From: Bolinopsis microptera
Lineage: Eukaryota > Ctenophora > Tentaculata > Lobata > Bolinopsidae
Length of the DNA stretch: 64,000 nt
Assembly (NCBI RefSeq): GCF_026151205.1
Contig: NC_087081.1
Location: 6,939,246 to 7,003,245, forward strand
Direction of reading: 5' to 3'
The notes beneath the pieces were generated by a model, which was not told the origin of the DNA, ran no database searches, and saw only the letters and a list, made by a program, of their open reading frames with translations. Of the stretch, positions 23,101 to 38,938 are shown piece after piece. The stretch's first letter is position 1. Each line of letters starts with the position of its first letter. The position numbers were made by a program, and so were the translations under genes.

Positions 23101-25103
23101 GTATCCAGCATATTTATAGTTCTATCGCTTCAGGTTTTTGACAGAGACGGAGACGGTTTTGTGTCAGCACAAGAACTGAAAAGGGCTTTAACACAGTAAG
23201 CAATTTACTCCAGTTTAATATGATATTCCCTGTAAATCCAATACAATAATAGTACTCTATGCTAAATCTGTCCTCACACGTGCTCAATCTGTCCTCAAAC
23301 GTGCTAAATTTGTCATCATACGTGCTAAATCTGTCCTCACACGTGCTAAATCTGTCCTCACACGTGCTAAATCTGTCCTCACACGTGCTAAATCTGTCCT
23401 CACACGTGCTAAATCTGTCCTCACACGTGCTAAATCTGTCCTCACACGTGCTAAATCTGTCCTCACACGTGCTAAATCTGTCCTCCCGTTCTCAATGTCA
23501 ATCATAAGTGGGCTGGGTCCTACATGTCAGAGACACTGTGCGATTATGATTAACAAGCTGGTGCTATTTGTTCTAAATGAAATGTTGATGACGTCATAAG
23601 ACATTGCAATGACGTTATTATGAAGTCATTATGACGTCATTATGCCTTGTTTATGACGTATTATCTTCAAGGTACGGTGAGCAGTTTACGGAGGACGAAG
23701 CTAACGAGTTCTTCAATATGATGGACACAGATGGTGACGGGGTAAGCTATTTTATTAAGCTATTAGTTAACTTACTAGGTTATTCTACTAGTTGACTTAC
23801 TAAGTTATTCTACTAGTTTACTAACTAAGTTAGTTTATTATTTTACTTGAAAAGTCAGTTTATTGGTTTACTGACAAGCATAGCTTATCTATTTACTCGA
23901 AAATTCAGTTGATGGAGTAGTTCGCTGTTTATTACTTATTAGTCTCATGATTGAAATACTGATAGTTGGATAATATCCGGTTGGAAGAGACAAGGACAGT
24001 TTTAACACTTTCAACATAACTATATAACAATTAATTTGAGCCTGAAGATGGCGTTTAACGCCGAAAATTTGCCTACATTCCTAACTTCCTGTTTCATTTG
24101 TCCTTGTCTCTTTCAACTGGATATTATCCAATTACTATCAGTATACATAGAATATGATATTATTATATTATAGTTTATGTATATTTATACTTTACTTTAC
24201 TTTAATACTTACAACGCTACTATATATTACAAATCATGAATAACAAATAATTTAAGTATATTTTGTATCACGCCGTGACCCCCCATCGTCGTTGCACTAT
24301 AGTACTGTAGAGTTTCTACGATACTGGGTATGACACTGTATATCATGATACAATCATTGATTGTAAAGGTTTACATGACCGACAGTTGAGAAGATCAGTT
24401 GCATGTTTTAGTGACTTATTTGGCTAACTAATGTATAAATATGTAATATAAGTATAACAAATATATAGTTTAAGTCGTTGTTACGAGGGAGAGACACGCT
24501 GTAACAACACTTACTAGAATCCTTACTACTCCGTATCCTTGTTATTTAGACCTGTAACAACCATCTAAACAGTTCACTTACCAATCAGACACGTTCTGAA
24601 CGCTATTTCACCTCATTTCACCTCATTTCACCTCACTTCACCTCATTTCACCTTTTAGCTAATCATTTAACTTGTTAGTTAAGTAGCAGCTCCGGAGTAG
24701 AACGAACTGTTTAGAACCAAGGTAGTAGAACCAATGTCTGCTTTTCAATATAAATCGTGTTTTTATAGATCTAGATACTGGGAGGTTAACAGTACTTTTT
24801 TGTACACGTCACACGTGACCGCGGGTTATCAGTTTCTAACATTAGCCAATCAAAAACCAGAAACTATGTCACAATGTGAACTCATCACGTCATGTCAAAA
24901 CAAATCAGGGTCCAGGTTTCTTTGAAGGTTACTTTGAAAGTTTGGGGTTCCTCGGGGGTTAATTTCAGGGGTTCTACTCTAAACATGGTTATTACTTTAT
25001 TAATGTTGATTTGATAGATTAACCTTCATTCTTCCACCAGGTAATCAACTATGAAGAGTTTGTGGAATACCTCAGAAGTATGCAAAAGTACAGCACAGAA
25101 TAA
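20111..25103 (+). CDS. Calmodulin-like four-EF-hand protein, isoform A (exon 1a)
   Basis: Six coding exons: 20111-20415, 22414-22532, 22778-22884, 23134-23195, 23672-23741 and 25041-25103, all GT-AG, giving 726 nt and 241 aa. Four canonical calcium loops are visible: DKNGDNVINVEE (about 109-120), DQDNSGTIDFDE (145-156), DRDGDGFVSAQE (180-191) and DTDGDGVINYEE (216-227). Each has acidic or Asn/Ser ligands at 1, 3 and 5 and Glu at 12. The spacing of 35-36 residues is that of calmodulin and troponin C, so it should be a cytosolic or nuclear Ca2+ sensor. Unlike calmodulin it carries an N-terminal extension of about 100 residues, with a basic patch (KRRK, residues about 31-34) and KHGKHGKHG. Exon 1a ends AG|GT in phase 2 and joins exon 2 as FDPVFR-QIFDMYD. 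The start is the first ATG of the open frame. Introns carry a 21-bp minisatellite and transposon debris. Confidence 0.85.
21552..25103 (+). CDS. Calmodulin-like four-EF-hand protein, isoform B (alternative exon 1b)
   Basis: A second ATG-led exon at 21552-21823 lies inside the intron after exon 1a. It ends at GCTAG|GTGCGG, also in phase 2, and joins the same exon 2 to give YSDIAR-QIFDMYD. With the five shared exons it makes 693 nt and 230 aa. The different N-terminus has a charged, probably helical segment (KDAAEEKKELRLKRLRRQ, about residues 26-43) followed by EMRIDVEKL. That segment resembles EVQRYDVEKI in exon 1a, so the two exons may be old duplicates. No acceptor that would join exon 1a in frame is obvious, so mutually exclusive first exons with separate promoters are the simplest reading. 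Splicing is inferred from phase and consensus only. Beyond 21823 the open frame continues to 21938 but loses EF-hand continuity. Confidence 0.7.
23259..23505. repeat. 21-bp intronic minisatellite, about 11.5 copies
   Basis: Unit GTGCTAAATCTGTCCTCACA plus C lies inside intron 4 of the calmodulin-like gene. Early copies vary (CTCAAACG, CATCATACG); later copies are identical. Open frames on both strands through it result from the period of 21. Confidence 0.95.
24263..24338 (+). mobile_element. Decayed copy of the hairpin-array element (copy E)
   Basis: The sequence opens TTGTATCACGCCGTGACCCC and continues CATCGTCGTTGCACTATAGT, matching the left half of the element at 30082. The right half has lost the GC-rich hairpin; only GGTATGAC near 24325 recalls the right end. 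It lies in intron 5 of the calmodulin-like gene. Confidence 0.55.
24609..24653. repeat. 10-bp tandem repeat CACCTCATTT
   Basis: About 4.5 copies of CACCTCATTT, one with CACTT, inside intron 5 of the calmodulin-like gene. Confidence 0.85.
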
Positions 25104-25367: not shown

Positions 25368-25569
25368 TCACGTGACATTGTAACTTGGTCACGTGGTATT
25401 GTAACTTGGTCACGTGACATTGCTACTTTGTCAAGTGACATTGTAACTTGGTCACGTGACATTGCTACTTTGTCATGTGACATTGTTACTTTTGTCACGT
25501 GGTATTATTACTTTTGTCACGTGGTATTGTTACTCTTGTCACGTGGTATTGTTACTTTTGTCACGTGAT
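25368..25569. repeat. 21/22-bp minisatellite of TCACGTGAC motifs
   Basis: Five 21-bp units around GTCACGTGACATTGTAACTT give way at about 25490 to 22-bp units GTCACGTGGTATTGTTACTT plus TT. Every unit carries the palindrome CACGTG, the E-box core bound by Myc/USF-type bHLH factors. The array begins about 265 bp after the calmodulin-like stop codon. Confidence 0.9.
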
Positions 25570-25680
25570 GCGGAATGCGGGTATGTGGAACACTCTGTCA
25601 GTGGGTTAAGTGTGTATATAATCAGATGTTTATAAGAGATGGAAACAATCATGTCAAGAACGAAGCTCAGTTGCTACGCG

Positions 25681-26100
25681 TGCTACACGTGCAGTTGTGA
25701 TGCTACACGTGCAGTTGTGATGCTACACGTGCAGTTGTGATGCTACACGTGCAGTTGTGATGCTACACGTGCAGTTGTGATGCTACACATGCAGTAGTGA
25801 TGCTCCACGTGCAGTTGTGATGCTACACGTGCAGTTGTGATGCTACACGTGCAGTTGTGATGCTACACGTACAGTTGTGATGCTACACGTGCAGTTGTGA
25901 TGCTACACGTGCAGTTGTGATGCTACACGTGCAGTTGTGATGCTACACGTGCAGTTGTGATGCTACACGTGCAGTTGTGATGCTACACGTGCAGTTGTGA
26001 TGCTACACGTGCAGTTGTGATGCTACACGTGCAGTTGTGATGCTACACGTGCAGTTGTGATGCTACACATGCAGTTGTGATGCTACAAGTGCAGTTGTGA
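25681..26100. repeat. 20-bp minisatellite, 21 copies, TGCTACACGTGCAGTTGTGA
   Basis: Exactly 21 head-to-tail units of TGCTACACGTGCAGTTGTGA with scattered single changes (ACACAT, CTCCACG, ACACGTACAG, ACAAGTG). Each normal unit holds CACGTG, so this array and its neighbour at 25368 bring about 30 E-box cores into 730 bp. Confidence 0.97.
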
Positions 26101-26526
26101 TACTACACGTGATACTACATGTGCTGGGGATTAGTGGATGTCATTTTCAGAAGTTCTGGTATTGGATGATCAAATATACTCTTGTTGGAAGAGGATTGAA
26201 ACTGGTTCATTCTGAATTATAAGAAGTCGTGATTCCATGAAAGAAGGCTTCCAGTTGTATAATTTTGCAACATTTTATACACGAAAGGCACCAAATTGCT
26301 ATGTAACTTTATTTGACAACCACTTTTAATATCAAATTGTATGGCAAATGTAAGTGGTATTGAACAGCAATTCTTTTAACAATTTGATTTTACATTGATA
26401 GCTTTTAATTGTTTAACATTTAACAAGGATCGGTTGCTGAATCGGAAAAAGAATTTGAAGCATATGTTGTGTTGATGACATCAATTTTTTTTAACTGAGG
26501 CAATTCGATAATCGATGATTACTTAA

Positions 26527-26776
26527 GGGGGCATACACTTAAACTGTTTTTGATGCCACCCCCAATTTGACTTCATATTATAAAAGTATGGAAAGAAACA
26601 ATACGTTTAGGCACATATAACTATATAAGGTACGTAAACAGTTTTTAAAAATAATTCCCTCATTCGGAAAAATTCACTTTTTATTTATCGTTATTAAGCT
26701 TTTGTTAACATTTGGTCACGTTTGTCGTTGTAATACCGATTTCCAAACATCAAAAAAATGTTTGGTGTATGTCCCA
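26527..26776. mobile_element. 250-bp TTAA-flanked relative of the 10677 foldback element
   Basis: TTAA lies on both sides (26523-26526 and 26777-26780). The left end GGGGGCATACAC and the right end (complement of TGGGACATACACC) are inverted repeats and resemble GGGGAGATACACC of the 10677 element. Internal words also match that element in order: ACTGTTTTTG, AAAAATAATTCCCTCAT and TTGTAATACCGAT. It is a diverged, internally deleted relative. Confidence 0.75.
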
Positions 26777-26789
26777 TTAAATTGGAAAT

Positions 26790-27540
26790 AACTCACTAGC
26801 TGAAGTAGCTTTGATACGTCTGATTAAAACTTGTAAGACTGGCCTTAAAGCTCGCAATTTTTGAGATTCAAGCAAATCGAGGATTTTCAAAGGGTGCAGG
26901 AGGTTCAGCTCGACAAAATACCGGTGGAAAATATTTCGTAGGCCCTAAAATGACTCCCCCATAGATTCAGTCTTAACCTTGAATTAGACAGAACTCACTA
27001 GCTGAAGTAGCTTTGATACGTTTGATTAAAACTTGTAAGACTGGCCTTAAAGCTCGCAATTTTTGAGATTCAAGCAAATCGAGGATTTTCAAAGGGTGCA
27101 GGAAGTTCAGGTCGACAAAATACCGGTGGAAAATATTTCGTAGGCCGTAGAATGACTCTTAACTCACTATAGCTGAAATAGCTCTGATACGTCGGAGTAT
27201 AACCTGTAAGACTGTGGACTGGCCTCCAGCTCGTTATTTTTTAAATTCAAGCAAATCGAGGATGTTCAAAGGGTGTAAGATGTTCAGGTCGACAAAATAC
27301 TGGTGGAAATTATTTCGTAGGCCGTAGAATGACTCATTTAGATCCAGTCTTAACCTTAAATTGGACATAACTCACTAGCTGAAAAAGCTATGATACATCA
27401 GATTAGAATCTGTAAGACTGGCGCCTCCGGCTCGCCATTTTTTAGATTCGAGCAAATCGAGGATGTTCAAATTGAAAGGGTGTAGGATGTTCAGCTCGAC
27501 AAAATACCGGTAGAAATTATTTCATTAGCCCTAAAATACG
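26790..27540 (+). repeat. Four diverged tandem copies of a 170-206-bp unit
   Basis: Copies begin at about 26791, 26993, 27162 and 27368 with ACTCACTAGCTGAAGTAGCT or variants. They share GTAAGACTGG, ATTCAAGCAAATCGAGGAT, GTTCAG(C/G)TCGACAAAATAC and ATTTCGTAGGCC. The variable length comes from presence or absence of a linker around AGTCTTAACCTTGAATTAGA. No open frame spans a unit. Confidence 0.85.
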
Positions 27541-28112
27541 GCTAAGGCATTGATAGCACACGATGTTACTTAAAGTTAAAGTTAATTAACGGACATATAG
27601 GTTCACCGTGATCATCTTGAACCTGTTTATGTAATTTAATTGTGACATCTCTATTTCTTATTCCTGTCATATTTGATATTGAATTAGAATGTTTTGAACT
27701 AAAAATAAACGTGCTGAACGACTTCCAAGTTCCGATGAGTCTTATAAATGCCTGGAAAAACAGTAAAGGGGTATACTACTACTAGTAAAGGGGGTGTAAC
27801 TGTAAGGGCGACGGTTGTGCTTGCCAGCTCTGTGATGCGTTCTCAAGTCTTGGCAGAATTACCGAATTACAAAGTCAATACCGCCTGCAGTTAGTCAATA
27901 GTTATGTAGCAAGTCACGTGATGTTTTTTGCCGCCCAACACTTTTAGATGTTTGAAATCACAATCTTACAAAAAAACTTACTTTAAGTTTGGGTATAAAA
28001 TTGAATAATGTTTCATAAACGTACAATCTCGGGAAATGATCACAGTATTTAAGTCGCAGTTAATCACTATCAGTATCAATTAGTATAATTGACTAAGAAT
28101 TATAATTATACT
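27541..28112. other. Non-coding stretch between repeats and GPCR gene
   Basis: No gene recognised. A possible duplicated word, ACTACTAGTAAAGGGG, lies around 27776. Nothing else structured until the palindromes at 28113. Confidence 0.45.
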
Positions 28113-28202
28113 AAGAGTTATAATTATACTAAGACTCTTAGTATAATTATAACTCTTTATCTCTAAATTATAACTTTTAGTAAGAGTTATAATTTAGAGA
28201 TA
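28113..28202. repeat. Two adjacent AT-rich palindromes
   Basis: 28113-28157 is a 45-bp near-perfect palindrome with 22-bp arms (AAGAGTTATAATTATACTAA then GA) and a one-base centre. 28158-28202 is a second inverted repeat with 18-bp arms TATCTCTAAATTATAACT and a 9-base loop. The arms share AGTTATAATT, so the two hairpins may be derived from one another. They lie about 170 bp beyond the 3' end of the GPCR coding sequence. Confidence 0.9.
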
Positions 28203-28370
28203 AACAATAAAACTAGACAACTTGTTTACAAAATGACGGACTAATAATGATAAGTCGGGTAATAATAATTGTTTCAATCCGATTTTTTTCGAAAACCTTG
28301 TGCAACTTTTTAGAAATGATATTTCAAAAACGATTAAAAGTTATAGTTCCACCTAATTAGTTTTAAGTAA

Positions 28371-29646
28371 TTACTCCTCGATCAAGACAGCTTCCCCGTC
28401 ACTATTTGCTCGGTAAGCACAACTGAACCAGGCAGCAACTCTTCTTAAATACCCCAAATACCTCTCCCTCAATTCCTGTTTCCGGGATATGATGATGGCT
28501 GGGTAGACTGCAGCGTAGATTAGTGGCAACGTGAACTCAGCGAATCCGATCTGTAAAGGATTACATTGTTATCATCACAATCAATAATTTCAATAAATAA
28601 TAAAAAACTTAACACCGTTAAAATATGATTTGCAACGGAAAAAAAGTCAAATTTGAGTAGCAAACGGGGATTATTGCTTCACTTAGTTTTACCTCTACGC
28701 CCAAATTCAGAAAATATTTCTCGCCGTGTTTCTCGTAAACGGTACTCCGATGATACATGAGCCAGGACAGGCAGAAGAAAAAAAAGGTGGCATTACAGAC
28801 AAAGAATAGAGTTGACACCAGGAAGACGGTTCTTGAGACATGTCGAGCAGTGTTGGGGACATGTGGAGCTGTTTCCTCGTCATTTTTGAGAGATCGTCTC
28901 AAATACTTTATCTGTATCATCATACAGATAAAAACGGTGAGAGGTATTACGAGGAAGTAGAGGAATGCGAGAAAACCCCCAACAATTTGGGCTCTCAGAG
29001 GTTGTTCCGTGCACTTTGAGTAACCGGTGGTGTCTCTGTGACAGAGTACTGCAGCTACAAGAATAATACCTGGGATATCAAAAAATAGAATTGTAAGTAA
29101 AACTAAATATTTTCCCGGTCCATCGGATGCCAGCTCCTTATCTACACTCAGAAGGATAATAGCAGTTAGAGCATCAGAGATGTGAAGCAGTGTGACGATC
29201 AAACAGAGAACTCGAACAACTTTTTTCAAGGCCTCCGTGTTTATCCTACGAAAGGGGTTCACCACTTTTAGAGTTAAAGTGATGGTCATAACAAGGTTAC
29301 AGAGCTTTGAACAGTTGATTCCGGGAAGTGCTGTCATCATGTAGTAAAACAATGTTTTATACAGGATATCTATCTCAAAATAGCCTGCGTAAGTTAAAAG
29401 ACTGGTCACAGATAAAACTATTTCACCTTGTGCTTTGAGAATGTCAAACAGTGCTATCCCCATGAAGAGCCTTGACACAAACTTAGCTCTGTCCCGATAA
29501 TAGTCCATGAAGATTACGGTGTTTTGAATCAGCACTATGATGGACAGAGGTATTTGTATGGGCGCGAGATCTCGGAACATTCCTTTGAACATGAACAGTA
29601 CATCTTCATCACCGATGGCGATGCTGTGTAGACCCGATTGATTCAT
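28371..29646 (-). CDS. Divergent class A (rhodopsin-like) GPCR, two exons
   Basis: Exon 1 (29646-28693) encodes 318 aa and is spliced GAG|gtaaaa to cctttacag|ATC, then exon 2 (28550-28371) encodes 59 aa: 377 aa in all, phase 0. Seven hydrophobic segments are visible: about 29-48, 58-84, 98-128, 145-167, 179-203, 222-245 and 272-297 in exon 1 order account for TM1-6, and TM7 is FTLPLIYAAVYPAIII in exon 2. Class A landmarks include N42 in TM1 (IQNTV), D68 in TM2 (LFMGIALFD) and P131 after TM3. The DRY motif is replaced (TLT at the expected position), and NPxxY is reduced to YPAII followed by SRKQELR, an arrangement reminiscent of odorant-receptor NPxIYxxRxxELR. An N-glycosylation site NQS sits at residue 2. 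Without the splice the frame would end after exon 1 with no TM7. The ligand is unknown. Confidence 0.8.
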
Positions 29647-30072
29647 TTATATTTTCAAACTGAGGAGATAGTTTTGTAAGTAATGATTAGTTCTTAGAAT
29701 AGACAAGTTACACTGTGAATTATTAAGATAACTGATCAGCCATTTCTCAGTCGTCCGTAATATATACAGCTATTAGATAGGTAATAGAATTAAGAGCTAT
29801 AAGCTAAAAAACATGCATTTGGTCAGTACCAGTTTTCGAACATTTACATTGCCATTCGATTGAGAAGCTGCAGGTAGTTTTTGACAAAAGCAAACAAAAA
29901 AATTCTAAAAATTCCGTGCACAATTTTTATGTTACCACGTAATACGTATTTGCAAAGTATAGACAAAAACTGCAGTTGAGTAGGCCAGGAAAAGTAAAGG
30001 CAATATACGAGGAACCAAAATCGGTAGTATCATGTATCATTTATTCAGGTCCAGGTATCAGTAATCTTTATT
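29647..30072. other. 5' flank of the GPCR gene
   Basis: Promoter and 5' UTR of the minus-strand GPCR should lie here. No convincing TATA box, element boundary or other gene is seen. Confidence 0.4.
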
Positions 30073-30081
30073 ATATTATTG

Positions 30082-30179
30082 TTGTATCACGTGGTGACCC
30101 CCACGGTCGCTTCACTATAGTGAAGGGGGAGCCGCGCACTTCCAACTTCGTGCGCGGCGGGTCATACAACGTATGACAA
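30082..30179 (+). mobile_element. Hairpin-array mini-element, copy A (98 bp, 9-bp TSD)
   Basis: Flanked by ATATTATTG on both sides (30073-30081 and 30180-30188). Read left to right it is a string of small hairpins: TCAC-GTG-GTGA; the 16-bp palindrome CTTCACTATAGTGAAG; GCCGCGCAC/GTGCGCGGC with a 10-base loop; and GTCATAC-AAC-GTATGAC, ending ACAA. It starts TTGTATCACGTGGTGACCCC. There is no coding capacity and no A- and B-box or cloverleaf typical of a tRNA-derived SINE. Compare 33868-33960. Confidence 0.8.
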
Positions 30180-30187
30180 ATATTATT

Positions 30188-30225
30188 GTATATTATATAT
30201 ATATATATATATATATTATTATATT
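30188..30225. repeat. (TA)n microsatellite
   Basis: A TA-dinucleotide run between hairpin element copy A and the LINE target duplication. Confidence 0.85.
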
Positions 30226-30238
30226 ACTTAACAGTGAT

Positions 30239-33200
30239 TTTAGGATGGTGTGTGACTGTAACGGGTCCGCATGACTGTAAAAGTCAGTACGTTTAACGCC
30301 TCGAGGAAGATCGCAGGATTCCTAGTCTACGCTACTCTTTTCATCATGGCTACGACACTCAATTTTGGGACATGGAATGTTTGCGGTCTATCGACCACAT
30401 ACAGGCAACACTTCGTTGCAGAGGACATTGACAGATATAACTTAGACATTTTAGCACTTCAGGAGACCAAGACACGTGAATACTTGGAAACAACACTCCC
30501 TGGACATCATCGATTGTTTTTGTTTGATCAGAGACACGATAGACACGGTGGACTTGGGTTTATTGTTAACAAGCGTTTTTTGGAATGTATAGTATCCCAT
30601 CATCAGATCAGTGACAGAGTTGTTTATATGGACTTTAAATTAAGTGCTAAAAGGGTGGATCAACCACCTTGTCATATCAGAATTGTTAATTGTTACAGCC
30701 CTACGAATCCCAAGTCAGTTCAGAATCCCCGTTTAGCAACCCAATTTTACGATGAGCTACTCGAGGCTATCAGTGTACCTGCTAGATTTGAAGTATGGAT
30801 GTTAGGCGACTTTAATGCCAAACTTGGCAAAAGAAGCCCTGTTGATGTAGAAAATGGTTTACATGTGAATATTGGTAGACATGGTGTTGGGAGGAGGAAT
30901 GAAAACGGTGAAAGGTTGCTACACTTTCTCACTGCTAATGGCCTGTTTGCTGCCAACACTTCATTCTCCCATAGCAGCAGACACATTACCACACGGACTG
31001 GTTGGATTCGGGATCGAGCAACCAGGAAAAGTAAACCTTATTTCCAACAGATTGACTTCATACTCTGCAAGTCCAGAAGCAAGGCACTGCTAACTGATGC
31101 CAGGTCATATGCAGGTACAAAGCACCGCAGTGACCACAAACTTGTTGTTGCCAAGGCAGATTTTTCGCAGCGCTTCATTTTGTACAGGGAGAGCAGAGCA
31201 TTTCAGAAGACTTATAACACAACAACCTTGATTGGAAGCAAACAGGCTCAACAACAATATCAGCAAGAACTTCGTCAGAAACTTGAGCAAACTGTATCAG
31301 ATCCTGACTTTACTTCCAACAACACGGAACAGCAATTTGATATGCTTTTTCGTGAAGTTAAAGAAGCTGCTGTTTCCACTGTGGGTTTTCGCGAGCCACA
31401 GCGAAAGAGGAATCATTCCTCTGACAGTCAAGTTGTTAGCATGTCTGAAGAAAGGAAACAACTTTTACAACAACTGAACAACAACGAATACAGAGACAGG
31501 ACAGCTCTCAGAGCTAAAATCAACAGGCTCTCAAACGACATTACTAAACGGTTGAAAACATTGAGAGTTGAGTTAGCAAACAGCCTAGCTAACTCTATAG
31601 CCACCATAGACGAAGGACGGAGAATGTTTGAAGCCGCTCGTCAACTATCAGGCAAACAGAAAACGGGTGCAGGCTCTGTGTCTGTTTTCAACACTGACAA
31701 CCAAATGGTAGATAATGAACGAGACAAGGCTGAAATCATTCGCCAGTACTTCGAAGAACACTACACTGGACCTGACAGTGAACCACCACTAGAACCGTTC
31801 ACAGGTAACCCTAGGCCCCTTCAAAACCCCATTACAGCGTTTGAAGTTGAGCTTGCGGCCAAGAAACTCAAGAACGGTAAAGCTGTTGGACCAGATGGGA
31901 TCCCAAACGAATTTCTCAAACACTCTCCTGAAATCTTTTTTTCCACATTTGCACAACTTACTAATCGATCCTTTGAGCTCCATGAACATGTACCTTCTTT
32001 CACAGAGGGATACCTTACTCCGCTCCAAAAACCTGGAAAGCCACTAGGCCCCCCTAAGAGTTTGCGCCCACTTTGCCTACTAAACGGTACTAGAAAGATA
32101 TTGTCCATGATAGTCTTAAAGCGCATCCAAAGGCAAGTATCTCAATACACTGGTCCTTGGCAGAATGCCTATAAACCTGGCCATAGTTGTGCAAATATCG
32201 TTTGGACCCAGCGAATACTAGTGTCAGTTGTCAAAGAAAAACGCTGGTCTCTTCATAAGATGGGCATTGACATGTCCTCTGCTTTTGATACCATAAAGAG
32301 GTCGGTATTACTTGACATTTTAGCTGATGCTGGTTGTAGTGAGGACGACATTCGACTGGTAAGGTATTTGCTCGCAAATACTAAACTGAAGATCAAAGTG
32401 AACTCAACAATATCGGGAGAGTTTATTGTCACGATTGGAGCTTTTCAAGGCGACAGTTTGTCTGGAAACTTGTTCACTCTATATCTGGCAGCAGCACTTT
32501 ACCGACTGCGTGCTGTTATGTCCTATCTAAGACCTAACCCTCCCATAGCTGAGAATCTGTTACCCCTCGAGTGGGAGTATGCAGATGACGCTGATTTTAC
32601 TGATGAGGATAAAAGTAACTTGGAGTCTTTGTTGCCAATATGTAAAGAGATATTGGAAGAGTGGAATCTTTTTGTCAATGAGTCAAAAACCGAGTTCACC
32701 CACTTCTATCTGGCCGGCAAGAACGAGGTTGATGACAAAGGAGAGACACTCAGAGGTAGAGAACCTTGGAGGTCATCTATCTCTTTAGGCTCTAAGTTGT
32801 GCAGCATCGAAGATGTCAAGAGACGATGTATACTCGCTAACATTGCTTTTCAGAACTACAAAAAAGTCTGGGAACAAGGTAGACGTATACCCTTGAAGAT
32901 TCGACTCAAGATATATGAAGCACAAGTTGTTTCAATACTGATGTATAATTGCAGCAGTTGGGCAACATCTAAACAACTCCTTCAAAAACTTGATGTCTGC
33001 CACAGGAATCATCTCCGTACGATCATCGGCATGACCTACCCTATTGTCATACGAAATGTGACTCTATACAAACGCTGCGAAGTTGTTCCACTAAGTGAGC
33101 GTGTTGCTCGTGCACGGTGGAGAATGCTCGGTCACATCCTCCGCAGTGATAATAACTCACCTGCCCAGCTTGCCTTACATTTTGCTGTAGAGAGTCAGAG

Positions 33201-33459
33201 TTTGATGAGAGGTAGAGTCGGACGACACCAGTCAAACTTGTTAAAAACTATTTTGAACGATTTAAGTGACAGAAACTTTAGACTTGTAAATACAGACGAT
33301 TTATACCATTTAAGACATTTTGCAACAGATAGAAAAGCATGGAGAGAGTTAAGCATGATTTAGTTTATTCTGTGTTATTTTTCTCTTGGTGACTTATCAG
33401 GTCATCAAGATGTTCTTTATGTTCTATTTTTGATTTGAATAAAGTTATATAATATAATA
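30239..33459 (+). mobile_element. Full-length RTE-like LINE, 3.2 kb, 13-bp TSD
   Basis: The 13-mer ACTTAACAGTGAT flanks the element at 30226-30238 and 33460-33472, a target-site duplication of LINE type. The element has a short 5' leader, one intact frame, a roughly 95-bp 3' UTR containing AATAAA, and an AT-rich tail (TTATATAATATAATA) rather than long poly-A. Total length near 3.2 kb with endonuclease and reverse transcriptase in one frame fits the RTE clade. The duplicated target includes the CAGTGAT terminus of the DNA element at 33466-33995, so the LINE landed a few bases inside that element's left end. Confidence 0.93.
30271..33363 (+). CDS. LINE polyprotein: AP-like endonuclease plus reverse transcriptase
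   Basis: The intact frame is 1030 codons. A second ATG at 30346 (MATTLNFGTWNVCG) lies directly before the endonuclease domain and may be the true start. The N-terminal third is an apurinic/apyrimidinic-type endonuclease: FGTWNVCGLS, LQETK (about 64-68), LGDFNA (about 178-183) and SDHK (about 287). It nicks the target for target-primed reverse transcription. The reverse transcriptase follows: KNGKAVGPDGIPNEF (about 535-550), DMSSAFD (about 666, motif A), GAFQGDSLSG (about 725) and the catalytic YADDADF (about 769, motif C). The C-terminus has CSSW, a region ending WRMLGHILR, and RGRVGRHQ, as in RTE-like proteins. No internal stop or frameshift exists, so the copy could be active. Dead relatives lie at 37252-37683. 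Confidence 0.93.
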   Translation: MTVKVSTFNASRKIAGFLVYATLFIMATTLNFGTWNVCGLSTTYRQHFVAEDIDRYNLDILALQETKTREYLETTLPGHHRLFLFDQRHDRHGGLGFIVNKRFLECIVSHHQISDRVVYMDFKLSAKRVDQPPCHIRIVNCYSPTNPKSVQNPRLATQFYDELLEAISVPARFEVWMLGDFNAKLGKRSPVDVENGLHVNIGRHGVGRRNENGERLLHFLTANGLFAANTSFSHSSRHITTRTGWIRDRATRKSKPYFQQIDFILCKSRSKALLTDARSYAGTKHRSDHKLVVAKADFSQRFILYRESRAFQKTYNTTTLIGSKQAQQQYQQELRQKLEQTVSDPDFTSNNTEQQFDMLFREVKEAAVSTVGFREPQRKRNHSSDSQVVSMSEERKQLLQQLNNNEYRDRTALRAKINRLSNDITKRLKTLRVELANSLANSIATIDEGRRMFEAARQLSGKQKTGAGSVSVFNTDNQMVDNERDKAEIIRQYFEEHYTGPDSEPPLEPFTGNPRPLQNPITAFEVELAAKKLKNGKAVGPDGIPNEFLKHSPEIFFSTFAQLTNRSFELHEHVPSFTEGYLTPLQKPGKPLGPPKSLRPLCLLNGTRKILSMIVLKRIQRQVSQYTGPWQNAYKPGHSCANIVWTQRILVSVVKEKRWSLHKMGIDMSSAFDTIKRSVLLDILADAGCSEDDIRLVRYLLANTKLKIKVNSTISGEFIVTIGAFQGDSLSGNLFTLYLAAALYRLRAVMSYLRPNPPIAENLLPLEWEYADDADFTDEDKSNLESLLPICKEILEEWNLFVNESKTEFTHFYLAGKNEVDDKGETLRGREPWRSSISLGSKLCSIEDVKRRCILANIAFQNYKKVWEQGRRIPLKIRLKIYEAQVVSILMYNCSSWATSKQLLQKLDVCHRNHLRTIIGMTYPIVIRNVTLYKRCEVVPLSERVARARWRMLGHILRSDNNSPAQLALHFAVESQSLMRGRVGRHQSNLLKTILNDLSDRNFRLVNTDDLYHLRHFATDRKAWRELSMI

Positions 33460-33465
33460 ACTTAA

Positions 33466-33995
33466 CAGTGATGCACGCCGGTTCATTTTTCGCCAACCGG
33501 CGGCGGGCGGCGGCGTGCCCAAAACGGCGTGCCCAAAATGGCCCGGCGTGGCGGCGTTCGGCGGCGTGGAACATAATTTTGTCAAAATTTAGGTTTGAAT
33601 TTTCAGGCCCACAAAACTTGTGGCGTACGTGCGCGCATGAAATAATGATGTAATAAGTGTGGTATTTACAGCATTAACGTTGGCTGAATGTGATGATGAA
33701 CGTAACGAAGTGGCCTCATAGCAGCGAGTAGCCACATAAAATTATATTTTTCTAAATTGTATCGTCCAAAAAATTTGCTTTGAAATTTTTTTTAAATTTT
33801 CACTGTTCACGCCACGCCGACTTGAAAAGTATCGGCGTGGCGGCGTGTGAAAATGTGCCGGCGCGGCTTGTATCACGTGGTGACCCCCACGGTCGCTTCA
33901 CCGGGATACAAGCCGGGAGCCGCGCACTTCGTGCGCGGCGGGTCATACAACGTATGACAAGGCGCGGCGGCGTCCGGCGGCGGCGTGCATCACTG
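33466..33995. mobile_element. GC-rich DNA element with CAGTGATGCACGCC termini (hAT-like)
   Basis: The left end CAGTGATGCACGCCG is mirrored by CGGCGTGCATCACTG at the right end. The subterminal sequence is unusually GC-rich, with many GGCGGCG and GGCGTG words on both sides. CAGNG termini suggest hAT. The outer flanks are TTACTTAA (30224-30231, before the LINE) and TTATATAA (33996-34003), a 6 of 8 match compatible with a decayed 8-bp duplication. A TA duplication of Tc1/mariner type cannot be excluded. It has no transposase frame. It has been hit twice: by the LINE at its left tip and by hairpin element copy B at 33868. Confidence 0.7.
33868..33960 (+). mobile_element. Hairpin-array mini-element, copy B (93 bp, 8-bp TSD)
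   Basis: GGCGCGGC precedes (33860-33867) and follows (33961-33968) the element. It has the same order of hairpins as copy A: TCAC-GTG-GTGA, then GCCGCGCAC-TTC-GTGCGCGGC with a 9-bp stem, then GTCATAC-AAC-GTATGAC. The central palindrome of copy A is replaced by GATACAAGCC, which is the exact complement of the host base triplet GGC plus the element start TTGTATC. It is inserted in the GC-rich DNA element. Confidence 0.85.
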
Positions 33996-34219
33996 TTATA
34001 TAAAAAGGATTTAGAAGCTTCTCAACTAATAGTTTGTGAGGAAGAGAATTGGTACATATTAAGGCAAAAAAGAGGAGGATTGGAGGGAGAGGGGAAAGGT
34101 ATACATACATTTTGATAGAGCTGCTGGATATGAATAAGCAGAAAGAATTTGGATAAAATCCTACTTTGATCGCTTCATGATATGAATACGATAGCATCGC
34201 ATCCACGGTAGGATCATAC

Positions 34220-34305
34220 TTACTGGGCCGCGCTCAGCCTGTCATTCCGCCAAATCTTTATTCGAATGAACATGATGAACATGATAGCCTGAGGTCCCCA
34301 GGTAA
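34220..34305 (+). mobile_element. Tiny 86-bp DNA element, TTACTGGG family, copy 1
   Basis: The octamer GATCATAC flanks the element (34212-34219 and 34306-34313). The left end is TTACTGGGCCGCGCTCAGCC and the right end GAGGTCCCCAGGTAA, imperfect inverted repeats of about 9 bp. The interior is CATTCCGCC, then an AT-rich AACATGATGAACATGATAG. The 8-bp duplication is of hAT size. Confidence 0.85.
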
Positions 34306-34429
34306 GATCATACATAAGACTGTACTATCACATACACTATTGACGATTCATAAATGATAAACAGTTGACATAAGAAACATTTTAAACTTAATCCACTTTA
34401 GCCCCTCAGCTAGCTGGGCTACGTCAAAT

Positions 34430-34795
34430 CACAGATGTGAGTGCATGTTCCCGGTTCCGTCAGCGAATCACGCTACAAGGACTAGGGTTGGGTTGGTTAG
34501 GGTTGGTTAGGGTTTCGAATTGCATCGTTCAGGGTCAGCTAGAGTGTAGAGAACGGCCGGTTAAAAAATTACGTGACATGCAGTCTAGTCGAGTGTAAAT
34601 AGTAAGGTAGTTAATCATCATCCAGACTAGATATGGCGGAATGACAAGTTAAGCTGAGCCTGAGAGCCACAGATAACTGATTACTGGGCCGCGCTCAGCC
34701 TGTCATTCCGCCTAATCTTTATGTTTATGAACATGATAGCAGCTGAGGTCCCCAGGTAAATAACTGACGGAACCGGAAACACTCACATTTGTGAT
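34430..34795. repeat. Inverted repeat pair around ACGGAACCGG
   Basis: 34430-34463 (containing GTTCCCGGTTCCGTCAG) is inverted at about 34764-34795 (CTGACGGAACCGG), about 80 percent matched, enclosing about 300 bp. It may be an older foldback element. It holds a degenerate GGTTAGGG run (34486-34512), a reverse partial copy of the TTACTGGG family (GGCGGAATGAC, 34634-34662) and the intact copy 2. Confidence 0.65.
34681..34759 (+). mobile_element. Tiny 79-bp DNA element, TTACTGGG family, copy 2
   Basis: ATAACTGA occurs directly before (34673-34680) and after (34760-34767) the element. Its first 30 bases are identical to copy 1 and its end CCCCAGGTAA is the same; the AT-rich middle is 7 bp shorter. 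Two clean insertions within 460 bp suggest recent mobility of a very small element. Confidence 0.87.
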
Positions 34796-35186
34796 CGCAA
34801 TGCGTTACTATGCCGCGCCGCGCACTTAATTATGCTTTTCGCAACCACTTCGCTAGATCGGGAAAATGCGCTAGTGGGCCTCGCCGAGCTGCGAAGATCA
34901 ATTGACATCGTCAATTAAAAGGCCGATAGGTAACTAACGGGGCAAGGAATGCGCGTGCCTGAAAGCTTTTACACACCGAAACGCTAATTCAGTTTTGATT
35001 GACGTTGTCAACCCTTCCAGATCGTTGCTCTGCGAAGCAAGAATGCTAATTTACGCAGCGCGTTGAAGCGGCTAAGTTCTCCAATTAGTTCAGTTATGTT
35101 TTACTGTATCCACAAGGGGGGCTGAAATTGAAACTAGGTTTTCGATCAAACGCTACCATTTGTAGTCAAACGTCTCCAACAGCTTT
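34796..35186. other. Mixed, GC-richer non-coding stretch
   Basis: The sequence is richer in CG words than its surroundings (CCGCGCCGCGCAC near 34812, GCGCGTGCC near 34950), with two ATTGACRTYGTCAA palindromes (about 34902 and 35000). It is probably transposon-derived; no boundaries could be set and no gene is seen. Confidence 0.4.
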
Positions 35187-35306
35187 GCTCTCGTCCAATG
35201 AAATCGATACATTTTGCAAGGCATTATGCATAATTGAATTACATATATTCGTATGCGAAGCTTGGCTTACATGTTACATAATGCAGCGATTTCATTGGAC
35301 GAGAGC
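35187..35306. mobile_element. 120-bp MITE, perfect 20-bp TIRs
   Basis: GCTCTCGTCCAATGAAATCG at the left is the exact complement of the right end CGATTTCATTGGACGAGAGC. The interior is AT-rich with no frame of interest. No certain target duplication is seen (AGCTTT and AACTTGCTTT flank the ends). Confidence 0.85.
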
Positions 35307-35529
35307 AACTTGCTTTATATCCAGAGCCCTTACGCTTGCAGTAGCGCGCGCCCGCCTCACGGCGGTAAAAAGGCTCTAGCCACCAACCCACCCAACGATT
35401 TTGGCACCACTTATGTAGAGTGCCAAAATTTCCCTCGCTTTTGTCCTCATATGCAACGTGTGTAGCCTTTCAGACATTGATTGCGTAAACGAGGTGTTGT
35501 ACGTCACCTCAAGGTTGCGAGAAGCATTA

Positions 35530-35645
35530 TTTGATGCGCGCGCGACCCGGTAGTGCATCGCGCTACAATCGTTTCACTATCATGTTCACGATACAGAGGG
35601 AGCCGCGCACTCGTGCGTGGCGGGTCATACAACGTGTGAGACAAG
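35530..35645 (+). mobile_element. Diverged hairpin-array element (copy D)
   Basis: The right half is clear: AGGGAGCCGCGCACTCGTGC, then GGGTCATACAACGTGTGA and ACAAGG. The left half is reshuffled: CGACCCGGTAGTGC and TCGTTTCACTATCATG replace the usual start, and a TTCACGATACAG segment sits where copies A and B carry their variable centre. Confidence 0.6.
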
Positions 35646-36282
35646 GCTCATATTAGGACTAGAAGAAAATTATTAGCATACATTTTAATTGGGGCCGGTT
35701 CTGTTTATAACTGTTACTTATATAGCTATAGGTTAGGTCTAGTTGTGACAAAAAAGTCTACTCTAAAACATGTTTTAGTTTATATTGTGTAGTTCAAGAA
35801 TATAAAATGCAGCTTCAAAGTGGATATTGGAGTTCTGGCGAACGATTATGGCCTTTGTATCAATGGTTATAATAAGCTATAAATATCCTAAACTATACAG
35901 TGCTAATTAAAAATTGTTGTACTTAATTCTCAAATTAAATTTAAAAAATTCAAAAATGTACATTTATTTTATTAACAAATTCTCACACATATTGAGGGGG
36001 ATTTAATTGAGATGTGTGTGACCAGCCAGTTATAATGTTTGGAAAATAACATTTGTGCAGTCGAAATCTTTTACGGTCCAATCAAGCAGGGCGTGGTTAT
36101 GTTGATTAGCTAATAGCATGAAAATGCTTTGCATATCTCTAGGGTGTGGCATCCCTAGAAGTAGTGTAGGAGGAAATAAATGCCTGATGCCGTCCAGGGA
36201 GGATCACATCAAATATTTGTTTTTGTTATCAATATTCAAAGTATTGTAGTGAAATCGATCCCAGCAATGTACCAGTCCCATG

Positions 36283-36580
36283 AAAATGTGAAAACGGTAG
36301 GTTCCTGGAAGTAGAGAAAGGAAGCTTCACGCCGTTCGTTTTCTCAACGTCTGGTGGAATGGGTGGTGAAGCTGAAAGACTAGTAAAGAAGCTGGCTAGT
36401 AAGATGGAATACCACACAGGGCAGAGGTACTCAGATGCTGTGGGGTACATTAGGAAGCGCCTTCGTTTCGAAAACTTAAGAACGACGGTAATTTCTCTCC
36501 GGGGAGACAGAGGGGCGAGAAAGAACTTTGTCAATATAGACAGTTTAGATTTGAACTTGGAGCCGCAAGGCCAAGGGTGA
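36283..36580 (+). pseudogene. C-terminal fragment of a reverse-transcriptase-type mobile element
   Basis: The + frame reads RFLEVEKGSFTPFVFSTSGG, then MGGEAERLVKKLASKM and YIRKRLRFENLRTTV, ending near LRGDRG. I recognise this pattern (GSFTPLVFSTTGG ... RxRLxFxxLR ... RG) from the C-terminus of reverse-transcriptase mobile-element proteins common in cnidarian and fish gene models; this is from memory, not a search. There is a stop just upstream and no polymerase domain, so it is a 5'-truncated remnant. A second member lies at 37860-38200 on the other strand. Confidence 0.6.
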
Positions 36581-36819
36581 TTTTCAAAATATTGAGTTTT
36601 TGAAGGGTTTATTTTATATAGGGTCATTGTGACATTATGTGTATACTGTTTGAAACATTTTATAAATTATGACATTACTAAAAAAAAGTATTGTAGTGAT
36701 CAGTCTAATCTTTCCTACTATAATATTTAGTTTAAGAAAACATATTCTTGCTTTGTTCTCTTTAGCTGTTTATTATTATTAATCAACTATATACAGCAAA
36801 CACAAGATTATTAATTAAT

Positions 36820-36872
36820 TAAAATTGAAATTTAAAAACACCACTATTAAGCGTACACTTTTACTCAGCAGT
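36820..36872. repeat. Interspersed repeat word, copy 1 (see 57443)
   Basis: The sequence AACACCACTATTAAG followed by ACTTTTACTCAGCAGTGT recurs at 57443-57497 in the same orientation with a few changes. Here it lies downstream of the LINE fragment at 37009-37224 on the minus strand and may be part of that LINE's 3' UTR. Confidence 0.55.
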
Positions 36873-37008
36873 GTCACTACAACTAGTTTACAAAAATACT
36901 TTTAAAACTATATATCAAAAGCAAAATAAAGTTCTATGTATAAATTCGTTCATAAAACTTCCAAAAAGCTAATATAATTTAGATAAGTCAAAGAGAGGGT
37001 TAAAATTA

Positions 37009-37224
37009 TTAATAAAACATTTTTGCTACCTCAGTGTCAGATAAAGTAAACAAATAAGTCTTCAGTGCGGACTTAAACGCCTCAACAGAATAACATTGTT
37101 TAACTGAGTCTGGTAGTGCATTAAAAACTCGTGGACCAACCACACTAAAACTACGATCACCAAAACCCTTGGTTGAACGATAAGGGACTATGAGCCTAAC
37201 AGTGTGTAATAGGAAATAAATCAT
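37009..37224 (-). pseudogene. LINE C-terminal fragment (CR1/L2-like)
   Basis: The minus frame contains GDRSFSVVGPRVFNALPDSV and then FKSALKTYLF, the well-known end of CR1/L2/Rex-type LINE proteins (GDRAFSVAAPKLWNSLP ... FKxxLKTHLF). Only the last 70 or so residues remain. It ends at a stop at 37009. It belongs to a different LINE clade from the RTE-like fragment just upstream in transcription order. Confidence 0.75.
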
Positions 37225-37251
37225 AAAATCGAGTGGCCGAGTAGTCTCGAC

Positions 37252-37683
37252 TCACCCATAGCTTCTCCATAAACGTCTATCATGAGCTTTGTACACTAAA
37301 TCGTTGAAATTACTTAAACTAAATCTTGTATTTACAATCACAATAATATTCTTCGTCATAATGTCTTTTAATAATAAATCAAATAAATTTGAACGAGGTC
37401 TGCCCCTCCTTCCTTTGTAGTCAAGACATCCTAAACATGCAAATCTAAAAGATAAGAAAGCGGGAGTGTCATCACCGCTTCTGAGAACGTGCCCAAGCAT
37501 CTTCCATTGTGCTTTCTTGATCCTTTCAGTAAGGGGACTGACATTACATCTCTTATATAAGTTCTCGTTACTGATAACCGTAGGCCAATAGGTGTTGATT
37601 ATCTGTCTCAGATGCTTCCTTTGAAGAACGTCGACAGATGCCATTACGGTTTCAGGAGCAGCCCAGCTGCTACAGTTATACAA
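37252..37683 (-). pseudogene. RTE-like LINE C-terminal fragment
   Basis: The minus frame begins MYNCSSWAAPETVMASVDVL and includes NLYKRCNVSPLTERI, WKMLGHVLRSGDD and GRRGRPRSNL. It aligns along its length with residues about 890-1025 of the intact LINE at 30271-33363 (MYNCSSW, LYKRCEVVPLSERV, WRMLGHILRSDNN), at about half identity. Everything 5' of CSSW, including the polymerase, is missing: a dead-on-arrival copy of a related but distinct family. Confidence 0.8.
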
Positions 37684-37859
37684 CTACATAGCTGTTTAGT
37701 AAGTATAATTGTACTGATTGTAAGGCATAAACAAGTCCAGGAAATAATGCACATTAATTGACCCAAAATCTATTATTGTTGTTGTTGATATTAGATAGTA
37801 TATACACAGTAAATTAAATCAAGTGATGCAATTGGTAAATCAGGAGCAATAAACATAAT

Positions 37860-38200
37860 CTATCCCTGGTCCTCGTAGCTCTTCTCCTCAGGTATCAGGT
37901 TGAAGGAGACCTTGGATATAATAGGGGCGGTCCATGCCTTCGTTGCCTTCCCACATGCACCTCTAACTGCTACTAGCACACTCCTCATTATATTCATGCT
38001 CAGGTGTGTCCTGATGTTACACATCACCTGGCTGTAGTCCTCCTTGGTCTTGGTGGCTATCAAAACTGCAAGTCTCCCCTCCATGAAATGCTTGACCTCA
38101 GGTGCTATTCCTCCTGTAGTGGTAAATGCAAGGGGGACGAATGACCCTTTCTTAAATTGTAGCACTCGGTTCATGTACTGGTTCTTTTTCTCATTCTTGT
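37860..38200 (-). pseudogene. Second C-terminal fragment of the TTGG-type RT element
   Basis: The minus frame reads EKKNQYMNRVLQFKKGSFVP, then LAFTTTGGIAPEVKHFM, IRTHLSMNIMRSVLVAVRGA. It has the same order of motifs as the fragment at 36283-36580 but is diverged, so the two come from different subfamilies. No upstream polymerase domain is present. Confidence 0.6.
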
Positions 38201-38361
38201 TTCACATTAATTGCCCCAAAATCTTGATTTCCCTTTTGTGTGACCGTACCCTGGTGACCACCAGTGTTGTCGCACTGTTCAGACTAGTTTGAAATTTGAT
38301 AATGATTCAGTTGCTTCATATTCTTAACTGTCATATAATTATTCTTTTAGGTGTATGTTCA

Positions 38362-38420
38362 GTGGCATAACATTCCATGTTGGCGCCCCTCCGAAAAAAA
38401 TCGCCCCCTATCAGCGTGGG
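38362..38420 (-). mobile_element. Reverse copy of the GGGGGCGC element end (see 16538)
   Basis: On the minus strand this reads AGGGGGCGATTTTTTTCGGA, GGGGCGCCAACATGGAATG, TTATGCCACTG. It matches 16725-16785 base for base over most of its length. Confidence 0.6.
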
Positions 38421-38828
38421 ACGGACTCACAAATTATATATTTTGTAAAAATAGCACGCGAAAGTTAAACTCTGTACAATATTATCATTTCATTATCCAT
38501 CGTGATTTACCGCACCAAAATAATGAGACAATGCTGTGCTAATCTTATATATTATGTATTAAAACTTTTACATCCTAATATGCAATATTCAATAGTATGT
38601 ACAAGCTGATTTGTTGTGAAAATCCTGAAACAATTTATATGTTTGTGCTCAGCTGATATCAGGCTTGGGGTGGTGCTTTAGAAGCGGTATTTTGGGTACT
38701 AGTAAAGCTCTTACAGGCAACTGGTTCCTTTTGCCAGCCGTTTTTAGTCCAAGTACTGTCCAATTTCTGGTCTCAGAACAGCGCAACTAAAATTGTCTTA
38801 TAATGCCAACATGGCCTGGAATTATTTT

Positions 38829-38938
38829 TATCATGTCGTGCAGTGACCCCCTGTCATTGCACGAAGTGGTTTTGTGGCAAAGCCACAAATAACGAAGCCG
38901 CGCACTCGTATGCGGTAGGGCCACAATGTGAAACAAGG
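38829..38938 (+). mobile_element. Diverged hairpin-array element (copy C)
   Basis: The order is TATCATGTCGTGCAGTGACC, a centre with the hairpin TTGTGGC-AAA-GCCACAA, then AAGCCGCGCACTCGTATGCG, GGGCCACAATGTGAAACAAG. The centre differs completely from copies A and B yet is again a hairpin with a three-base loop. No clear target duplication. Confidence 0.6.

Follow-up and report, generated by a model that had tools for sequence, protein, structure and literature searches.

Small mobile elements with a shared TT-hairpin end architecture and 8- or 9-bp target duplications in the ctenophore Bolinopsis microptera

What kind of element are the two short, hairpin-rich repeats (copies A and B; Table 1) found in a stretch of the Bolinopsis microptera genome, and what moves them? 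In this stretch of 64,000 nucleotides (the window; NC_087081.1, positions 6,939,246 to 7,003,245), the preliminary description had recognized a 93-98-bp mobile element without SINE promoter boxes or transposase, made almost wholly of small hairpins and accompanied by three more decayed copies, and had suggested a folded single-stranded or RNA intermediate or host-factor binding. Copies A and B, with target duplications (TSDs) of 9 and 8 bp, respectively, are intact members of a real mobile family, designated here F1; the length first given holds for both and is too narrow for the family, in which 84 of 98 copies measure 79-129 bp. A mobile family too short to code is supported; the window contains no tRNA gene, and positions 24000-40000 have no match in Rfam. 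All three decayed copies look F1-like by eye, the one placed at 35530 being only the right half of F1 beside an F2 fragment and the one at 38829 being F1-like on inspection alone. The insertion site of copy B lies close to the right-hand end of an older, hAT-like MITE (CAG...CTG). The larger point, which goes beyond the preliminary description, is that about nine families (F1-F9), F1 among them, have a common end architecture.

Table 1. Elements of the group located in the window (positions are those of the window; intervals are from blastn where stated).
Feature	Position	Strand	Remarks
F1 copy A	30082..30179	+	98 bp; TSD ATATTATTG at 30073-30081 / 30180-30188
F1 left end (copy A)	30082..30100	+	TT + GTATCAC-GTG-GTGACCC; imperfect hairpin, 5/7 pairs
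F1 right end (copy A)	30161..30179	-	TT + GTCATAC-GTT-GTATGAC; perfect 7-bp stem, 3-nt loop
F1 copy B	33868..33960	+	93 bp; TSD GGCGCGGC at 33860-33867 / 33961-33968
F3 element	34220..34305	+	86 bp; TSD GATCATAC; ends TTACTGGGCCGCGCTCAGC / TTACCTGGGGACCTCAGGC
F3 element	34681..34759	+	79 bp; TSD ATAACTGA
F2-related element, degenerate	34796..34918	-	blastn interval
F8 element, degenerate	34995..35084	+	without clean TSD (by eye)
F4 fragment	35310..35371	+	blastn interval; also by eye
F2 fragment	35513..35569	-	terminus ...GTAGTGCATCGCGCTACAA; adjoins F1 remnant
F1 remnant (middle and right arm)	35570..35643	+	blastn interval; inspection
Decayed F1 copy	24263..24338	+	left arm and middle recognisable by eye; absent from blastn intervals
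Heavily decayed F1-like copy	38829..38936	+	without clean TSD; by eye only; absent from blastn intervals

The right end of F1, GGCGGGTCATACAACGTATGACAA, occurs 2,424 times at no more than one mismatch in the 264.65-Mb genome, and the reversed pattern not once. The preliminary description had staked its case on duplications at other copies; these are present, and the F1 TSD is nearly always exactly 8 bp. Of the 98 copies for which both ends are available, the TSD is exactly 8 bp in 59, 9 bp in two, 8 bp with one mismatch in 12 and absent in 25, and exact TSDs of 5-7 bp were not seen; re-paired F1 flanks gave 0.6 8-bp duplications per set. The 9-bp TSD of copy A is an exception within the family. 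F1 has a weak target-site motif (after symmetrising, 58% A at -5), which the other families do not clearly share. The arms of F1 are conserved and its hairpin-rich middle is hypervariable, with 69 distinct middles among 78 copies (three of 81 failed arm matching), and tandem duplications occur in nine of these 78 middles versus 0.6 in shuffles. Flank-templated repair was rejected as a general source of the variable middles, own-flank matches being no commoner than in the control (72 copies, after dropping those near locus edges or with middles above 90 nt). In the middle of copy B, 11 nt match the left junction of this copy itself.

Folded as single-stranded DNA, copy A (z -5.8) and copy B (z -4.7) were each matched by none of 200 dinucleotide shuffles, and a 121-bp form of F1 reaches z -9.3. 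The statement that almost every base sits in a hairpin suits copy A and the 121-bp form, and fits the middle of copy B less well. Since folding of whole elements is weak in F2, F3 and F7 (mean z -0.56, -1.21 and -1.25, respectively), the description as hairpin-built applies only to F1, F8 (three copies) and, in part, F5.

The other families were found around F1 copies; the nine have median lengths of 81-121 bp and 8- or 9-bp TSDs. Exact 8-/9-bp TSDs number 67/2 in F1, 6/15 in F2, 19/13 in F3, 2/15 in F4, 6/4 in F5, 8/6 in F6, 5/0 in F7, 2/1 in F8 and 2/0 in F9, and their sequences vary freely. F3 ends occur 3,192 times in the genome at no more than one mismatch. Together F1-F9 make up 13.6% of the sequence flanking 30 F1 loci versus 1.2% of the window, and nested insertions with 8-bp duplications are found at two loci (L021 and L093) and, by eye, at a third (L091). 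F2-F9 were mostly discovered within 1.5 kb of F1 copies and are thus a biased sample, whose consensus ends were written by hand; large tandem-array clusters (133+133, 28+28 and 7+7) and small clusters were set aside by eye. A search at title and abstract level, with Repbase and most subscription papers outside its scope, found no prior description of the group.

The unity of the group lies in its ends. TT followed immediately by a hairpin is found at 15 of the 17 family ends, the TT being read from the TSD in F1 and imposed in F2-F9, for which TT...AA was the search condition, and the stem sequences differ among families. The usual form is TT plus a 17-nt imperfect palindrome with a 7-bp stem and a 3-nt loop, often GTT or GAT; F4 is 5-4-5, the right end of F8 has no hairpin (2/7 pairs) and the left end of F9 forms only 4/7. 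A list compiled blind to hairpins comprised TT...AA intervals bounded by 8-mers (222 tandem-array intervals dropped by a fixed rule, 201 kept) and yielded 103 clusters, of which the 23 with at least two distinct TSDs were used. Thirteen of the 23 have a hairpin at offset 2, with 0.40 expected by shuffling, and five more have it one base inward, TTT preceding the stem (four according to the 7/3 score and one, a 5-4-5 hairpin, by eye); among the five clusters without a hairpin, one is an F1 right end that carries inserted bases and another is a degenerate end of F4. TT-hairpins at both ends mark 29 of 673 intervals of 60-150 bp at exact 8-bp repeats and 19 of 511 at 9-bp repeats, against 1 of 4,777 at 6 bp, 2 of 1,614 at 7 bp and 0 of 185 at 10 bp.

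Pairing within the 15 ends reaches 81 of 105 arm cells, against 39.4 with the 3' arms re-dealt (0/20,000), and when visibly related ends are dropped it persists in the 11 left (62 of 77 against 29.1; 0/20,000). The ends are not fully independent: F1R, F7R, F9L and F9R are alike, as are F2L and F8L, and F5L and F6R, and F6L is identical to F6R at 12 of 17 positions. On 17 rows, two of which (F2bL and F6bL) were added after their pairing had been seen, the covariation score is 0.857 versus 0.224 in shuffles (0/500) and at most 0.172 in a slid alignment, with the caveat that relatedness among rows may be enough to outdo shuffles even where no structure exists; two mid-stem pairs include all four Watson-Crick types. 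Two of five covariation measures are no better than shuffles, namely pair changes on both sides (7 versus 6.0; 144/500) and further pair types (18 versus 16.4; 147/500). The stem covariation on which the preliminary description had wished to rely is seen between families and only slightly within one: compensatory changes are few (F2L 20/89, F6L 6/44; the F7R and F6R rows include the related F1R and F5L ends) and most changes are single. In seven families (F4 and F8 left out), the core, that is the loop and closing pair, has an identity of 0.71 between the two ends of a family versus 0.45 across families (p 0.001), and the arms 0.45 versus 0.34 (p 0.078), arm identity not being significant; terminal inverted repeats, if the ends qualify as such, would consist of TT...AA and a common core. 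The relevance of folding claimed earlier seems to hold at the ends, given that across families these pair and covary. Among the 56 base changes in 67 left ends of F1, 29 sit in the 3-nt loop, which counts for the explanation that we favor below; stem position 14 is changed in 14 of the 67, which counts against it.

No autonomous partner was found: among 87 right and 89 left ends with unusual neighboring DNA, a sample that misses a partner whose ends keep the usual neighboring DNA, no oriented pair lies within 20 kb by eye, and about 340 kb scanned for a long element gave none that was convincing. Thirty of these right ends (L061-L090) and six of the left ends are mostly nested, truncated or degenerate by eye. 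The right end adjoins non-F1 DNA in five of the 30 (L065, L077, L078, L082 and L089), and in all of these except L065 the end of another family lies next to it. The earlier worry that F1 copies might be internal parts of a larger known transposon is not borne out at 60 loci (L031-L090), none of which plainly shows such an arrangement. At L047, 1,257 bp separate F1-type ends; because the insert carries its own 25-bp inverted repeats and only a short open frame, we read this locus as an F1 copy split by about 1.1 kb of inserted DNA and not as a larger relative. The genome contains 88 MULE domain matches and at least 150 hAT dimer domain matches (150 of 365 candidates scored). Two 6-kb MULE stretches and one 4.8-kb hAT stretch, in which no element ends of any kind could be fixed, showed no TT-hairpin ends, so that MULE and hAT both stay candidates, and KDZ (Zisupton-like) transposase has no match in the genome, nor in the control genomes. 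A viral or prokaryotic origin was rejected, the exact right-end pattern having no match in collections of viral contigs and of genome contigs and copy B none in phages.

Short, non-coding, high in copy number, flanked by TSDs of fixed length and presumably mobilized in trans, F1-F9 resemble MITEs; they differ in that the two ends of one element are alike in shape and loop more clearly than in their arms, in that one end architecture is common to about nine families, and in the hypervariable F1 middle. They may nevertheless be ordinary MITEs that belong to one or several known superfamilies and whose transposase reads a weak linear end of about TTGnnnnACGTTGnnnnnC, the palindromes serving for dimer binding or arising through quasi-palindrome correction, in which template switching turns imperfect palindromes perfect, and not being read in folded form. 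This is a serious competitor, although we incline against it. TTGnnnnACGTTGnnnnnC is the majority consensus of the 17 ends, several of which are related and some of which have no hairpin; covariation could arise by a mutation process without selection, two of the five measures fail to exceed shuffles, and MULE and hAT domains are present. Against it stand the four pair types in mid-stem, arms that are not significantly alike in elements whose cores are, and pairing that outlasts the removal of related ends. By TSD length the likeliest superfamily would be MULE, whose 8-11-bp TSD overlaps the 8/9 bp of F1-F9; palindromic 17-nt ends are, to our knowledge, no MULE hallmark. hAT elements have 8-bp TSDs, as F1 and F7 do, and CAG...CTG-type termini; the family ends begin instead with TT, F2 and F4 have mostly 9-bp TSDs, and the CAG...CTG MITE hosting copy B looks different from F1-F9. 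The ends disfavor hAT as the source of the transposase, although hAT domains are abundant in the genome. The attC sites of bacterial integrons, substrates of a tyrosine integrase that are conserved in fold rather than sequence and make no TSD, offer a comparison of principle only.

Transposition as single-stranded DNA by an HUH enzyme (IS605-, Helitron- or Replitron-like) recognizing subterminal hairpins is very unlikely. The structure-conserved, sequence-poor ends, the many diverse small elements and their nesting in mobile elements recall the PATEs of Haloquadratum walsbyi, which are related to IS605-type elements, but PATEs have neither inverted terminal repeats nor TSDs, and IS605-type elements make no TSD either (PMC3119063), whereas F1-F9 have TT...AA ends and a fixed 8-9-bp TSD and reside in an animal. 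A review describes Helitrons as likewise making no TSD, and Replitrons as bounded by short direct terminal repeats, with a TSD length of 2-8 bp (PMC10741241); F1 ends are, by eye, of the inverted type (TTG...CAA) and not direct repeats. The Acropora CMITEs are also about 100 bp, high in copy number, from a marine animal and unusual in conservation; we rejected identity with these piggyBac-type elements, which have a TTAA TSD, mostly CCC-type termini and a middle better conserved than the TIRs (PMC2872659), the reverse of F1. Retroposition of a folded small RNA, as in SINEs, is more improbable still: F1 folds strongly as a single strand, but, on the tRNA and Rfam results above and by eye for the tail, it shows neither of the hallmarks of SINEs, a promoter derived from tRNA, 5S or 7SL and a poly-A or simple-repeat tail, and its TSD length is fixed and both its ends conserved. 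The RNA or purely single-stranded intermediate suggested earlier is not supported, given the fixed 8-9-bp TSD, which is what a staggered-cutting DNA transposase is expected to leave. Copies A and B are flanked by AT-rich and GC-rich simple sequence, as an artefact of chance or assembly with coincidental flanking repeats might be; the reversed-pattern and TSD controls and the nested insertions refute this.

Our best reading, towards which we lean, is that F1-F9 are MITE-like elements mobilized in trans whose ends are recognized by palindromic shape and loop. A DDE-type DNA transposase is favored over an RNA or single-stranded DNA route because the staggered duplication has a fixed length. We propose that F1 would be a non-autonomous DNA element moved by such an enzyme, which would cut the target with a stagger of 8 or 9 bp, and that the transposase or a partner protein would recognize the shape and loop of the end, in the simplest case extruded as a hairpin or cruciform, which would allow unrelated stem sequences to serve as ends. 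The F1 middle may be little constrained, and deletions and tandem duplications would remodel it, in line with what hairpin DNA should undergo during replication or repair.

Eukaryotic cut-and-paste transposases are generally taken to recognize their ends as linear sequence. A bolder and rather doubtful extension of the trans-mobilization reading is that this animal harbors a transposition system that reads its own ends as folded DNA, through a TT-flanked hairpin with a free stem and a short loop code, and still integrates into duplex DNA with an 8-9-bp staggered cut. If this were true, any stretch of DNA carrying two hairpins of this kind could found a new mobile family, which would account for about nine families that differ in sequence yet have the same end architecture, for the way they nest within shared islands and for the fast remodeling of their interiors. 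With families that keep structure and loop while their stems diverge, nature would offer a test of whether ends can be recognized by structure in an animal; such families would also illustrate the repeated origin of tiny elements without an obvious parent transposon. The rule of TT, a 17-nt hairpin and an 8/9-bp TSD detects elements that annotation based on sequence can miss.

Copies A and B of F1, the small hairpin-rich mobile family, are present in the window (G000:C10:6939246-7003245, within an assembly of 264,652,675 bp and 232 contigs) exactly as the preliminary description claimed, with direct repeats ATATTATTG and GGCGCGGC. With copy B as query at least 44 matches were obtained, at least 40 of them at full or near-full length (40 of 1,067 first-look candidates scored); the F1 right-end pattern occurs 2,424 times genome-wide at ≤1 mismatch, and its reversed form, used as a control in the same genome search, 0 times. 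Among 98 copies with both ends, the target duplication (TSD) is an exact 8 bp in 59, 9 bp in 2 and 8 bp with one mismatch in 12, and 25 have none. F1 is a MITE-like family at high copy number, and the original observation is genuine, even understated.

The hairpins described earlier in F1 are real, but the richest variation lies in the middle and not in the ends. On average a copy has 0.78 edits in its left 23 bp and 1.19 in its right 44 bp; the middle takes 69 distinct sequences in 78 copies, is 13-141 nt long, and contains tandem duplications in 9 of the 78 copies versus 0.6 in shuffles. The form found at loci L052/L053 is orderly, with five consecutive hairpins in 121 bp (folding z -9.3), and the list of middles suggests that the shorter copies are deletion products of a form of this kind. 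Duplicated units of at least 15 nt occur in the middles at L058 (several repeats in succession), L034, L051, L060 and L064, which we read as hairpin instability.

Features of the window in and around the F1 copies
Feature	Position	Strand	Remarks
F1 copy A	30082-30179		
F1 copy B	33868-33960		
Non-LTR retrotransposon	30271-33363	+	1,030-aa open frame; endonuclease (Exo_endo_phos) and reverse-transcriptase domains
hAT-like MITE	33466-33995		inverted CAGTGATGCACGCCG ends; degenerate 8-bp flank match by eye
Rhodopsin-type receptor-like open frame, 342 aa	28618-29646	-	Pfam 7tm_1 21.2 bits, under cut-off
Minisatellite arrays	25344-26191		20- to 22-bp units
Tandem repeat	26760-27537		units of ~200 bp, three to four copies

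Copy B lies inside the hAT-like MITE and is thus younger than it. The retrotransposon has by eye a 13-bp direct repeat, acttaacagtgat, on both flanks, and its insertion site is the left end of a CAG...CTG MITE. For the receptor-like frame, 41 homologues reach E ≤ 0.001, and the most similar of them is 78% identical. The arrays at 25344-25578 are built on TTGTCACGTG..., similar to the CACGTG core that the F1 left end contains.

What is new is a group of families joined by hairpin-shaped ends. When 90 loci and the window (338 kb) were scanned for TT...AA intervals lying between 8-bp repeats, under a G+C filter and without a hairpin condition, many further small elements came up; we sorted these into eight families, F2-F9. 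F3 ends alone number 3,192 at ≤1 mismatch. Coverage by F1-F9 is 13.6% in the flanks of 30 F1 loci (a rough figure, as some loci overlap) versus 1.2% in the whole window and 0% in L097-L099; the window holds eight blastn intervals from five families (F1, F2, F3, F4, F8), all inside 30082-35639. Members are nested within each other, with 8-bp duplications, at L021, L088, L091 and L093, reflecting either mutual targeting or a common target preference. At L065 (~1478-1525) a different palindrome, AACTTGATGACGTCTAGTCATCAAGTT, directly adjoins an F1-type right end and is possibly one more family.

Exact TSDs by family; the remaining copies show an 8-bp repeat with one mismatch, or lack any exact repeat of 5-10 bp
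Family	Copies	8 bp	9 bp
F1	105	67	2
F2	46	6	15
F3	58	19	13
F4	41	2	15
F5	39	6	4
F6	36	8	6
F7	8	5	0
F8	9	2	1
F9	6	2	0

The shared end consists of TT followed by a 17-nt imperfect palindrome (7-bp stem, 3-nt loop). A list compiled by fixed rules and blind to hairpins (TT...AA with exact 8-mers, tandem arrays removed by rule, two or more distinct TSDs) comprises 23 end clusters. Of these, 13 have the hairpin right behind the TT, where letter shuffling predicts 0.40; in another five it is shifted inward by one base (four according to the printed score, one by eye), and the last five lack it. TT-hairpins on both sides accompany repeats of 8 bp (29/673 intervals) and 9 bp (19/511); the control lengths gave 1/4,777 (6 bp), 2/1,614 (7 bp) and 0/185 (10 bp). 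In 15 family ends, not counting F4, 81 of the 105 arm cells are paired; re-dealing the 3' arms gives 39.4 (0/20,000) and shuffling the letters 28.8; with visibly related ends removed, 62 of 77 pair versus 29.1 (0/20,000). Within a family, both ends have the same core, made up of loop and closing pair (0.71 vs 0.45, p 0.001; 7 families), and less clearly the same arms (0.45 vs 0.34, p 0.078). No hairpin forms at the F8 right end, the F9 left end forms a weak one, and F4 ends have a 5-4-5 shape instead.

A fixed 8-9-bp duplication is the hallmark of a DDE-type transposase that cuts its target with a stagger. It counts against movement of the Helitron or IS605 type as so far known and renders RNA routes improbable, which disfavours the folded RNA or single-stranded intermediate that the hairpins had earlier suggested. 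Since the elements are too short to code, their ends must be recognised in trans, and they would be moved by a protein encoded elsewhere. Pairing and loop are retained although the stems differ in sequence, so recognition of the ends by shape, with the stem sequence free, would be the simplest single rule, a bolder but testable reading. Its main rival holds that a linear-sequence rule plus quasi-palindrome correction accounts for the ends. In a 17-row set, two rows of which were added after their pairing had been noticed, 84.0% of cells are paired versus 49.0% in shuffles (0/500) and the covariation score is 0.857 versus 0.224 (0/500; sliding ≤0.172), with shuffles that take no account of relatedness; two-sided pair changes (144/500) and further pair types (147/500) are not above these shuffles. 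A stem base is altered in 14 of 67 F1 left ends, and compensating changes within families are few (20/89 in F2 left ends, 6/44 in F6 left ends).

As to an autonomous partner, F1 ends with unusual neighbouring DNA (87 right, 89 left) include by eye no oriented pair within 20 kb, a search that would overlook a parent with the usual DNA next to its ends. In the ~340 kb of loci and window no long element with TT-hairpins is convincing; certain long intervals of the window and tandem arrays were taken for chance. The 1,257-bp interval between F1-type ends at L047 (reverse strand) is read as an F1-type copy split by a ~1.1-kb insert, a separate element terminated by inverted repeats around CTCAGAAAAGGCAGTAAGTCCA. 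In the genome, hAT domains (at least 150 matches; 150 of 365 candidates scored) and MULE domains (88 matches) are present; KDZ transposase gave no match, its control also being without signal.

The nearest published analogue found is the PATE/IS605 elements of Haloquadratum, which are likewise sequence-diverse, with near-terminal palindromes and mutual targeting, but are described without duplications (PMC3119063). Coral CMITEs are also ~100 bp long and differ in their TTAA duplications and conserved middle (PMC2872659). Mnemiopsis is reported to be without microRNAs and essential processing components (PMC3563456), which would make it less likely that the present hairpins have a miRNA-like role. 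In Mnemiopsis, too, the anchors of chromatin loops are reported to bear a GC-rich motif containing two CpGs, and transposon insertions to be abundant in loop promoters (PMC12221973); a possible lead is that the present GC-rich elements may be carriers of a loop-anchor motif of this type.
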